Origin: Candidatus Thorarchaeota archaeon AB_25
Lineage (GTDB): Archaea; Asgardarchaeota; Thorarchaeia; Thorarchaeales; Thorarchaeaceae
Reading direction: 5' to 3'
Length of the DNA: 40,281 nt
NCBI GenBank assembly: GCA_001940705.1
Contig: MEHG01000008.1
Location: forward strand, 1 to 40,281
Shown here: positions 23,645 to 26,718 of the stretch, in pieces
How positions within the stretch are numbered: position 1 is the first letter of the stretch
Layout: the number at the start of each line of letters is the position of its first letter
Position numbers and translations under genes: made by a program
Notes under the pieces: model-generated
The model's input: the letters and a program-made list of their open reading frames with translations, nothing else
Databases searched by the model: none
Told to the model about the DNA's origin: nothing

Positions 23645-24232
23645 GTGAGAGACCCATATTCCATTTTAGTCGCAGGCGTTGGAGGACAAGGCAACCTCGT
23701 CTGTGGCAGGATTATCGCAGAAGCCACGATGAAACAGGGTCTTCGACCAGTCGTGGGAGACACCTTTGGTGCATCACGCAGAGGTGGTAGCGTGGTGACT
23801 CATATCAGAATTGGAAAACAGGACTGGGGACCGCTAATACCCAAAGGGGAGATTGATGTCCTACTTGGGTTTGAGCCAGTCGAGGCGCTCCGCGCAGCCA
23901 CGAGATATGCAGGCGATAGGACCGTTTCCATTGTTAGTATGATGTCTGTGCCACCCTCAAATGTAACATCAGGAGACCTAAGCTATCCAGAGATCAACGA
24001 TATCAAGCGGGAACTGGAATCTATCTGTAAGAAGGTGTACATGCTAGATACAGAACCAGTCTTGAAGCGGCTGGGTTCTACACGCGTTCTGAACTCATAC
24101 ATGATTGGTGCAGTCTCTTCAATAGAAGATAGCCCTCTTGACTCAAAGAACTTACAGGAAGCAATATTGAATATCCTCAACTCTGAGAAAGACTTGGTAG
24201 CGTTCAATGAAGGTGCAAAAGCTCTACATTGA
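23645..24232 (+). CDS. iorB: Indolepyruvate ferredoxin oxidoreductase, beta subunit
   Basis: 'SILVAGVGGQGNLVCGRIIAEATMKQGL', 'FGASRRGGSVVTHIRIG'. GTG at 23645 is preferred over the 23507 start inside iorA. Confidence 0.9.
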   Translation: MRDPYSILVAGVGGQGNLVCGRIIAEATMKQGLRPVVGDTFGASRRGGSVVTHIRIGKQDWGPLIPKGEIDVLLGFEPVEALRAATRYAGDRTVSIVSMMSVPPSNVTSGDLSYPEINDIKRELESICKKVYMLDTEPVLKRLGSTRVLNSYMIGAVSSIEDSPLDSKNLQEAILNILNSEKDLVAFNEGAKALH

Positions 24233-26533
24233 CGACTTCTTCTCATCTTGGTGCTTGCGAGCTTCTCGCCACATGACCTCAGCCAGCACCGTAAACATAT
24301 CCGCTACACCCTCACCAGTCTTTGCTGATGACTCCATGTAGAGAAATCCGTTGTCCTCAGACCAGCGCTTTGCCTCATCAGATGGTACTGCACGATCCGG
24401 TAGGTCAGTCTTGTTACCCACACAGATTATGGGCACTCTGCCACCAATGGACTCATCAGCCTCTTGGACCCACTTGGCTAGCTCGGTGAAGGAACGGCGT
24501 CGTGTCACGTCGAAAACCAGTATGATTCCAGCAGCTCCAGAATAGTACATCTTACGCACCGCCTTGAATCGTGCTTGTCCGGCAACGTCCCACGCCTGCA
24601 GTTTGATTCCAGTTGCATATTCCTTCTCTGGCGCGGAGATGTGTGCTAATTTGACAGCGAACTGACTTCCAATGGTAGTCTTGTAGTCCCGCTCGAAAAC
24701 ACCGGTGACGTAACGGTTCACGAGAGTTGTCTTTCCGACAGCACCCTCTCCGATCACCATTGTCTTAAACAGGAACTGGTAAGAGTCTGGAGCAGTTCCA
24801 GGTTGTGGAGCCTTTGGTCGCCTTTGTTTTATCTCTGAAACAAGCTGGCTCTCAGTGTCAGAAATAACAGCAGTCATTACGGTCTCTTCAGGAGTCGGTT
24901 CAGCTGCGAGTGCCTCAATATCATCAATCTCTACCGATTTTGCACCGGTCTCCTCAGCACCAAAGAGTTGGTCGAGAAGGGCCTCCGCAGCTTTTAGTGA
25001 CTCAGAACCATCATCAGACATTGTTGTCTGCAGAATCTCGGCAGCTTTGTCTTTGGCTTCCGCATCTACAAACCCAGTGCCAACTACGGATCCAAATGGC
25101 GATTCTTCTACTACCTCTGGAGGTTCATAGATCGCTGTCGGTTCTACGGGAACAGGAGCCACTGCTGCAGGAGCAGCCACTGCTGCACCCTTCTCAACAA
25201 GGACAGCTGTTTCAGGTGTTGTTACCTGTCGGACCTTACCACTGGCATCAGTCCACATCAGGACTATAGGTCGTACAATCACAGTTCCTTCTTCTTTTGG
25301 TGTCAATTGAACTTCCATACACTTGCTCTCTCCTGGAGCAAGATCAAAACGAAGTTGTTGGGGCTCGACATCCATGTGATCCTTTGGGAACCAGTAGATC
25401 TTACCAGACACACCATTGACTGGTTCGTCACTCACATTGTACACAGTGATCTTTCCTCTGAGTTCTGCACCTGTCTTTGTTTCAGAGCTCACTTCGAAAG
25501 TTGGAATAATCGTGTAGAGACCCTCAATGACCGTCAATGGACCATCGGAAATACCCACTTGAATCTCTTTTCGACCGTCGCCTCCAGCATCGCCAACATT
25601 GATGGCGAGTATCTTCTTCCCAATGTCGACTGAGGCTAACTGGTTGAGGTCAGCCATATGAAGGCTGTAAAAGTTGATCTTGAAATCAGAAGTAGCCACA
25701 ACGATCTCATCTTGGTGATCGGCGTTGAGCTCTTCTATCCGAATTGATAGTGCGTTCACGTCCTCAAGTTTTGAAAATAGGTCTAGCTTGCTCTCTTCAT
25801 TTCTATACACGCGAACCGAGCCGTCATGAGTGACAACACCAAGTTCCATCTTCCTGTCACCAAGCACGTCACCTGCAGCCACAGAAATGACTGGACTGGG
25901 CAGCTGAATGACCTCTATCTGGTCAACAGAATGGTCTCGTACTTTGAATATCCTAAGAGTGCGGTCTCTGCTTCCTGTGACAATCTCTTCGATTTCATCG
26001 CCAATCACGTCACAGGTACCAATGGTAATGGGCATGTCATCGAGCTGATGGTTCACAAACTGTGTGAGGTTATTTGCGGTGTCCATCTGGAGGATTCTCA
26101 ACGTTGAATCACTACCACCAGCTAGAATCTCGTTCTTCTCGTCACCAGTCACATCAGTGACATAGACTGAAGTGACAAAACGATCAACTGGAAATTCAGC
26201 TAGGAGTTCGAGCTGGCCACTAGGGGCATAGCGGAAGACTTGGACTGTTCCAGCTTCACCCGGATTCTCACTACTTCCTATTGAACGACCAATGACAAGC
26301 TCCATTTGTCCATCATTGTTTGCGTCAGCAATCCTAATGGAGAGTATACTCCCTCCGACATCATGCTGTGCAAGAAAAGCAATCTCGCTCTTGTTGGCAT
26401 CATACAGGCGAAGAACGCCATCACGACCGCCAGTACACAGCTCTGCTGTGCCACTACCGGTGACATCTCCTACTGCAATAGCGCTAGTGCTCTGGTCATC
26501 TTCTATCTCGAACAGAACTTTCGGTGAATCCAA
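24224..26533 (-). CDS. FG-GAP/VCBS-type beta-propeller, Ig-like domain, and Ras/Rab-like small GTPase fusion
   Basis: Repeats such as 'VGDVTGSGTAELCTGGRDGVLRLYD' and 'ITDVTGDEKNEILAGGSDSTLRI'-type units, a beta-sandwich segment, then GTPase motifs 'GEGAVGKTTLV', 'WDVAGQARF', 'GNKTDLP', 'SSAKTGEG'. Confidence 0.9.
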   Translation of the reverse strand: MDSPKVLFEIEDDQSTSAIAVGDVTGSGTAELCTGGRDGVLRLYDANKSEIAFLAQHDVGGSILSIRIADANNDGQMELVIGRSIGSSENPGEAGTVQVFRYAPSGQLELLAEFPVDRFVTSVYVTDVTGDEKNEILAGGSDSTLRILQMDTANNLTQFVNHQLDDMPITIGTCDVIGDEIEEIVTGSRDRTLRIFKVRDHSVDQIEVIQLPSPVISVAAGDVLGDRKMELGVVTHDGSVRVYRNEESKLDLFSKLEDVNALSIRIEELNADHQDEIVVATSDFKINFYSLHMADLNQLASVDIGKKILAINVGDAGGDGRKEIQVGISDGPLTVIEGLYTIIPTFEVSSETKTGAELRGKITVYNVSDEPVNGVSGKIYWFPKDHMDVEPQQLRFDLAPGESKCMEVQLTPKEEGTVIVRPIVLMWTDASGKVRQVTTPETAVLVEKGAAVAAPAAVAPVPVEPTAIYEPPEVVEESPFGSVVGTGFVDAEAKDKAAEILQTTMSDDGSESLKAAEALLDQLFGAEETGAKSVEIDDIEALAAEPTPEETVMTAVISDTESQLVSEIKQRRPKAPQPGTAPDSYQFLFKTMVIGEGAVGKTTLVNRYVTGVFERDYKTTIGSQFAVKLAHISAPEKEYATGIKLQAWDVAGQARFKAVRKMYYSGAAGIILVFDVTRRRSFTELAKWVQEADESIGGRVPIICVGNKTDLPDRAVPSDEAKRWSEDNGFLYMESSAKTGEGVADMFTVLAEVMWREARKHQDEKKSSM

Positions 26534-26718
26534 GTCAGCAACCTTCCTGTTGATAATGGCGTCTATGGCATTATCTACTATTTACACGTGCCTAGTACAG
26601 ATATTGAATGCATCTAGTGCCTTTTTTTACTTTGCTGGGTTGACCTCCCCCCTAGTTTCTTGTGTCAACAGCATAGCATTTAACAGATTGAGCGATTCCA
26701 GTTATCTTGGTAGCAACA

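Follow-up and report, generated by a model that had tools for sequence, protein, structure and literature searches.

A Rab-like small GTPase joined to a beta-propeller and an Ig-like domain in one polypeptide, conserved in a single family of Thorarchaeota

Asgard archaea hold many Rab-like GTPases, and the effectors and regulators of these GTPases, as well as the processes that they serve, are largely uncharacterised. Beta-propellers are general adaptors, and several of the intracellular scaffolds that contain them (the BBSome, ITFG2 of KICSTOR, COPI) operate with small GTPases; ITFG2/KICSTOR works with Rag GTPase regulation. Small GTPases are also found within multi-domain chains, for example in the 'large Rab' GTPases Rab44, RASEF/Rab45 and CRACR2A, which combine them with EF hands and coiled coils, and in the Roco proteins, including LRRK2, where the arrangement is Roc-COR and LRRK2 also has a propeller. 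In Asgards, roadblock and longin domains are known as fusion partners of GTPases (PMC10933270), and putative homologues of AP/COPI components have been described (PMC10307638). Protocoatomer proteins of the COPI, COPII, clathrin and NPC type consist of a propeller followed by an alpha-solenoid (PMC6141808). In OCRL1, the ASH domain and the helix adjacent to it bind Rab8a (PMC4094338).

The window analysed here is a stretch of 40,281 nucleotides from Candidatus Thorarchaeota archaeon AB_25. It contains a single uninterrupted open reading frame that carries, in one chain, an FG-GAP propeller, an Ig-like sandwich, an acidic linker and a Rab-like GTPase, in this order. The features are the following:

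24224..26533, minus strand: whole gene, 769 aa, TTG start; supported by full-length orthologues
26541..26548, minus strand: Shine-Dalgarno-like AGGAAGGT, 7 nt 5' of the TTG; predicted from sequence
25523..26521, minus strand: seven-bladed FG-GAP-type beta-propeller, residues ~5-337; AlphaFold, Pfam, Foldseek
25193..25510, minus strand: Ig-like beta-sandwich of the ASH/MSP/CARDB kind, residues ~342-447; model, Pfam, Foldseek
24779..25192, minus strand: acidic Ala-rich linker, mostly disordered, residues 448-585; pLDDT, composition
24956..25003, minus strand: conserved amphipathic linker helix ESLKAAEALLDQLFGA (residues 511-526), a candidate binding motif
24779..24856, minus strand: conserved neck ES-LV-EI-R-PK-P-PG..SY, residues 560-585, just before the GTPase
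24254..24778, minus strand: Rab-like GTPase domain, residues ~586-760; Pfam Ras, PDB match, tree
24728..24751, minus strand: G1 / P-loop GEGAVGKT, residues 595-602
24575..24589, minus strand: G3 DVAGQ with the catalytic Gln653, residues 649-653; invariant in 27 sequences
24404..24415, minus strand: G4 NKTD, residues 707-710; N707, K708 and D710 invariant

In several orthologues the in-frame residues R-K-V, which correspond to the AGGAAGGT stretch, precede the start. A first-pass annotation of the window had described FG-GAP/WD-like blades, a beta-sandwich segment and an acidic Ala-rich linker, and all three were recovered: AlphaFold predicts seven blades, for which Pfam reports FG-GAP repeats and weak WD40-type matches, the sandwich is modelled in isolation with a pLDDT of 91.6, and residues 448-559 of the linker contain 24 D/E against 5 K/R. 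The conserved linker helix, the limits of the lineage and the single origin of the fusion are additions to that description. In the full-length AlphaFold model, pLDDT is below 50 across most of the linker. The helix, which the model places at residues 509-524 with low confidence, has a column conservation of 0.77 as opposed to 0.45 in the remaining linker, and the neck (residues 560-585) reaches 0.73. Neither a transmembrane-like stretch (maximum 19-residue Kyte-Doolittle value of 1.48) nor a hydrophobic N terminus was found in the protein. In contrast to extracellular integrin/VCBS FG-GAP proteins, it thus lacks the expected secretion signal or membrane anchor, and its propeller shares the chain with a cytosolic-type GTPase.

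The GTPase is the most conserved region of the protein (mean column conservation of 0.88) and matches Pfam Ras with 154.5 bits at residues 590-753, as opposed to 45.5 bits for Arf. Across 27 sequences, GxxAVGKT at 595-602, T620 of switch I, D649-Q653, N707/K708/D710 and S736-A737 vary little or not at all, in agreement with the earlier description of a complete small GTPase with all G motifs, including the DVAGQ glutamine. Because these motifs are retained, the domain should be an active switch. The strongest PDB match is the Thorarchaeota Rab 7ezb (3.9e-43), followed by Rab14 (1.9e-40), Rab11 and Rab25, so that comparison with known families, one of the checks proposed at the outset, returned a Rab-like domain. 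In the phylogenetic tree, the fused GTPase domains form one clade (support 100/99) with a single-domain paralogue of the same genome (G000:C73) as its weakly supported sister (84/88), and this assemblage groups with the Thor-Rab and two eukaryotic Rabs (86/89), the only eukaryotic sequences in that group being Rabs. The GTPase is closest to Rabs, not to Arf, Ras or Rag, and the G000:C73 paralogue is likely its nearest relative.

This paralogue (L002:1486-2046, plus strand) is 52% identical to the fused domain, and similar matches of ~50% are present in most of the family genomes listed. The same genome yields 27 Ras-profile matches, the weaker of which probably represent other GTPase families; the fusion protein is the longest frame among them. 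Two Rab-like GTPases of a different Asgard family, f2 (L081:79-1533 and L082:1-1440, both minus strand) have long, disordered-looking Pro/Glu-rich tails, and the former ends in a CxxC...CxxC zinc-ribbon-like motif.

As the first-pass annotation had stated, the window protein has no C-terminal Cys, and none of the 27 aligned rows has one among its last 6 residues; these rows end with the tblastn match, in some cases a few residues before the stop codon. The C-terminal Cys prenylation motif of eukaryotic Rabs is accordingly missing from the fusion protein. In the full-length AlphaFold model the GTPase is poorly modelled (block pLDDT of about 28-76), and the packing of this low-confidence part was rejected as a source of structural conclusions.

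The propeller is predicted by AlphaFold with 28 strands that form seven blades of four at residues 6-336, mostly at a pLDDT of ~90. Pfam FG-GAP_3 matches it with 62 bits in four stretches, the best at residues 23-81, and Beta-prop_BBS7 (54 bits) and BBS2_Mid (53 bits) both score above the cut-off. When the full model was compared with the PDB by Foldseek, BBS2 came first (1.4e-20), followed by BBS9, BBS7 and BBS1 (to 1.6e-15), ITFG2 of KICSTOR (4.6e-15), the secreted CRTAC1 (1.6e-13) and COPI beta-prime (1.5e-12). The BBS alignments have an rmsd of >20 A across about 470-605 columns and a TMq of ~0.35; they therefore join pieces that lie in differing relative positions, and the propeller is their solid part. 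By sequence, the best match of a propeller+Ig profile against the whole PDB is ITFG2 (1.6e-5), followed among the coat-like proteins by BBS7 (0.007) and BBS2 (0.06).

The BBS names in Pfam are not evidence for a relation to the BBSome because control propellers match the same models. Among ten other Asgard propellers, most score above the cut-off with BBS2_Mid and BBS7. One of these, whose N terminus is signal-like and which carries a glycosyltransferase domain, reaches 88.6 bits with BBS2_Mid and 32.9 bits with BBS7. BBSome homology was rejected as an explanation of the Pfam matches. More generally, archaeal Pfam BBSome matches should be treated with caution, being mostly generic FG-GAP propeller matches. 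An ordinary integrin/VCBS propeller remote from coats was not found either, as CRTAC1 reached only 1.6e-13 against 1.4e-20 for BBS2. The predicted fold favours the intracellular FG-GAP scaffold type, and propellers are too alike for a closer assignment.

Other propeller proteins were encountered in these searches. The genome of the window encodes a second one that consists of the propeller only (L079:1159-2178, minus strand; G000:C79; ~339 aa), and ~340-aa propellers resembling it occur in many family genomes. Cytosolic-looking propellers of ~560 aa with C-terminal winged-helix-like repeats are present in family f2 (L077:1158-2867, minus strand; L078:1467-3164, plus strand; L085:1028-2710, plus strand), and both scanned members, L077 and L085, match the BBS7 propeller model of Pfam with 81-89 bits, a higher score than that of the window protein. 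In family f27, a propeller gene adjoins a TFIIB-like gene (L072:455-2716 and L073:602-2947, minus strand; L074:1684-4071 and L075:1127-2281, plus strand), and in L072-L074 the propeller protein has several repeats that end in 'PRGY' and may be winged helices; together, these features hint at a link to transcription. In L088:261-2030 (minus strand), a zinc-finger-like CxxC stretch comes after the propeller; the C-terminal region, which has no Pfam match, resembles longin/roadblock domains on visual inspection.

The assignment of the sandwich is less clear-cut. Pfam ASH scores 22.9 bits in the whole protein and 27.5 bits with the domain alone (cut-off 27), and matches the sandwich in 27/27 orthologues at E<=1. 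For the isolated sandwich, Foldseek places TRAP-beta first (7e-6, TM 0.81), then the VAP-A MSP domain (1.3e-4) and CARDB (4e-4); further matches include the SCS2 MSP domain, complement domains, arrestin and the CEP192 SPD-2 domain (1.2e-3). A sequence profile of the sandwich retrieved only chance-level B-cell receptor matches from the PDB. These data point, marginally, to an Ig domain of the ASH/MSP type, with TRAP-beta scoring higher than the structures of the ASH family. No BBS GAE or adaptor appendage was among the top 50 Foldseek matches, and the appendage/GAE identity was rejected on the basis of the isolated model and this search. The ASH match is relevant because OCRL1 binds Rab8a through its ASH domain and adjacent helix (PMC4094338). 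By analogy, the succession of an ASH-like domain, a conserved helix and a Rab-like GTPase in one chain may be regarded as a lead.

The fusion is a single-copy gene of one Thorarchaeota family. A protein search recovered the full-length protein from most relatives in that family, across 13 genera, at 62-89% identity, and with a propeller+Ig profile the fusion was detected in about 41 of the family's 47 genomes, among them the single-contig chromosomes G034 and G036. All 11 family genomes listed as >=95% complete carry it, and those without it are 52-88% complete. The phylum's remaining 181 genomes lack it, their best match (71 bits) covering only the propeller, and in a sample of long propeller frames from other Asgard families (L072-L078, L085, L088; 753-795, 560-569 and 589 aa), which combine the propeller with winged-helix-like repeats or other domains, those scanned gave no Ras match. 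This survey bears out the proposal of a cis fusion in a probable Asgard archaeon, the nearest named relatives being Thorarchaeota MAGs. In a named collection, a scan with two short peptide patterns, which distant relatives would escape, found 36 loci, nearly all labelled Thorarchaeota. Two MAGs with the fusion gene (L155, L158) are labelled Lokiarchaeota; these public labels look wrong because their counterparts, G032:C99 and G027:C55, group with the window's own family.

Gene order is conserved across genera in 18 loci and comprises an iorA/iorB-like pair, the fusion gene and ABC transporter genes; these metabolic and transporter neighbours imply no functional partner. The gene is inherited vertically in this fixed synteny. 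Since the fused domains form one clade beside the single-domain paralogue, a single fusion in the ancestor of the family is the simplest reading.

We propose, with a probability of about 0.5, that the fusion protein is a cytosolic GTP-switched scaffold in which a Rab is tethered to its own effector-like module. We favour this because the G motifs, including Gln653, are kept in 27 sequences within the most conserved domain, because the nearest solved relatives of that domain are the Thorarchaeota Rab and eukaryotic Rab14 and Rab11, because the propeller is closest to the intracellular scaffolds BBSome, ITFG2 and COPI, because every member matches the ASH family and has a conserved helix after the sandwich, and because the protein has no transmembrane stretch or hydrophobic N terminus, a single fusion origin and vertical inheritance. 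A single event in the family ancestor would have placed the Rab-like GTPase C-terminally of a propeller of FG-GAP descent and an ASH/MSP-type Ig domain, and GTP binding and hydrolysis would govern partners held by these two domains. The long acidic linker may permit the GTPase to fold back on the Ig domain and the conserved helix, in the manner of OCRL1-Rab8, so that the protein could act as a Rab with its effector in cis, which binding of a partner or an exchange factor might open or recruit. This intramolecular binding is drawn by analogy because the full-length model, in which the GTPase is poorly modelled, predicts no contact of the GTPase with the Ig domain or the helix. The architecture, its conservation, the intact active site and the lack of export or lipid-anchor signals are established here, and GTPase activity, contact in cis, partners and cellular location are what we infer. 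Against the scaffold stand the ASH match, which barely exceeds its cut-off (27.5 vs 27), the preference of Foldseek for TRAP-beta and MSP structures, and the metabolic and transporter neighbours, which suggest no genetic partner; moreover, the linker helix may be only a local ordering element.

The protein could instead be a nutrient or stress signalling scaffold of the KICSTOR/Rag kind that does not coat membranes, its propeller sensing or docking a regulator and its GTPase conveying the state to metabolism. The rank of ITFG2 in the whole-PDB profile search and its Foldseek score are in line with this, as are the metabolic neighbours, namely the indolepyruvate-oxidoreductase-like pair and the ABC transporter genes, whose order is kept across the family. 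However, the entire neighbourhood is broadly conserved, so its order may reflect slow rearrangement alone, and the GTPase is Rab-like, not Rag-like; we consider this alternative unlikely. Somewhat less probable is a regulator of polarity or the cytoskeleton, in which an MglA/Ras-like spatial switch would be linked to actin or ESCRT by the propeller as adaptor. Small GTPases are numerous in Asgards (PMC10933270), which also have an actin cytoskeleton (PMC9834061), but sequence, neighbourhood and fold search gave no specific link.

The first-pass annotation had compared the layout of propeller and appendage-like sandwich with eukaryotic trafficking coats. As a cis-fused coat-like or trafficking-adaptor subunit, of a proto-BBSome/COPI type, the protein would bind cargo through the propeller and use the sandwich as an appendage, and its built-in GTPase would bring it to the membrane, substituting for a separate Arf/Arl. 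The full structure prediction and Foldseek comparison upheld the propeller half of this comparison, with BBS2, BBS9, BBS7 and BBS1 as the best folds, COPI beta-prime further down and both Pfam BBS models above the cut-off; the appendage half failed, as the sandwich is nearest to TRAP-beta, VAP MSP and CARDB and not to GAE or appendages. The Pfam BBS matches are unspecific, extending to a secreted propeller and most other tested Asgard propellers, and the BBS superposition breaks down beyond the propeller. In the AlphaFold model, no alpha-solenoid was found, so the protocoatomer arrangement is not seen, nor were the BBS coiled coil, alpha/beta platform or helical C terminus; no helices separate the propeller from the sandwich, after which come the disordered linker and the GTPase, which lacks a prenyl Cys. 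Because alpha-solenoid, GAE and platform are absent, we advise against classing the protein as a coat or BBSome subunit. Coat behaviour is possible, though we rate the coat reading as a whole as rather improbable, and we see no good evidence for an ancestral vesicle coat. It is more doubtful still that the protein performs in one chain what in eukaryotes is done by a trafficking subunit of propeller and sandwich together with the GTPase that recruits it, as a functional analogue or perhaps a relic relative of that pairing; in this case, a Thorarchaeota Rab-like switch would bring along a coat- or tether-like scaffold of its own and assemble on membranes when bound to GTP.

A chance or artefactual fusion without joint function, through mis-assembly or a recent gene collision, is barely credible: the same genome does encode stand-alone GTPases and propellers, but the orthologue survey refutes such a fusion, with the full-length architecture in 13 genera and on single-contig chromosomes, conserved synteny and linker motifs, and one clade of fused GTPases.

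A literature search whose coverage leaves out most subscription papers, so that an earlier mention is possible, returned no report of a fusion of a Rab-like GTPase with a propeller and an ASH-like domain, nothing that links Thorarchaeota with both a GTPase and a propeller or archaea with both FG-GAP and a small GTPase, and nothing relevant on Asgards and the BBSome. The lasting union of this Rab with a propeller and an ASH-like domain, throughout the history of its family, points directly to a likely effector module, and the question of what Asgard Rabs switch becomes testable with a single purified protein.

The fusion protein belongs among the multi-domain small GTPases of Asgards. With BBS1/2/7/9, its best Foldseek matches, it shares the N-terminal seven-bladed propeller and a beta-sandwich further on, but not the coiled coil, the alpha/beta platform or the C-terminal helices, and its sandwich is not nearest to GAE; its GTPase is present in cis, whereas the BBSome uses a separate Arl6. 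ITFG2 of KICSTOR has a similar cytosolic FG-GAP propeller, the only part that aligns, and no fused GTPase. Roco proteins have Roc-COR, whereas no COR was found here. With single-domain Asgard Rab-like GTPases (7ezb; PMC10933270) the protein shares the G motifs, the DVAGQ/DLAGQ glutamine and the top PDB match; here, however, the GTPase stands at the C-terminal end of a chain of 769 aa, after propeller, Ig domain and linker, and the fused domains adjoin a different single-domain paralogue in the tree. OCRL1-Rab8 (PMC4094338) offers, by analogy, an ASH-type Ig domain and helix as a Rab-binding unit; OCRL1 and Rab8 are separate eukaryotic proteins, and the fusion protein would represent a cis version. 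As in the Asgard roadblock and longin fusions (PMC10933270), a small GTPase stands in cis with a regulatory or scaffold domain; those proteins are Rag/Arf-like, whereas this one combines a Rab-like GTPase with a propeller and an Ig domain.
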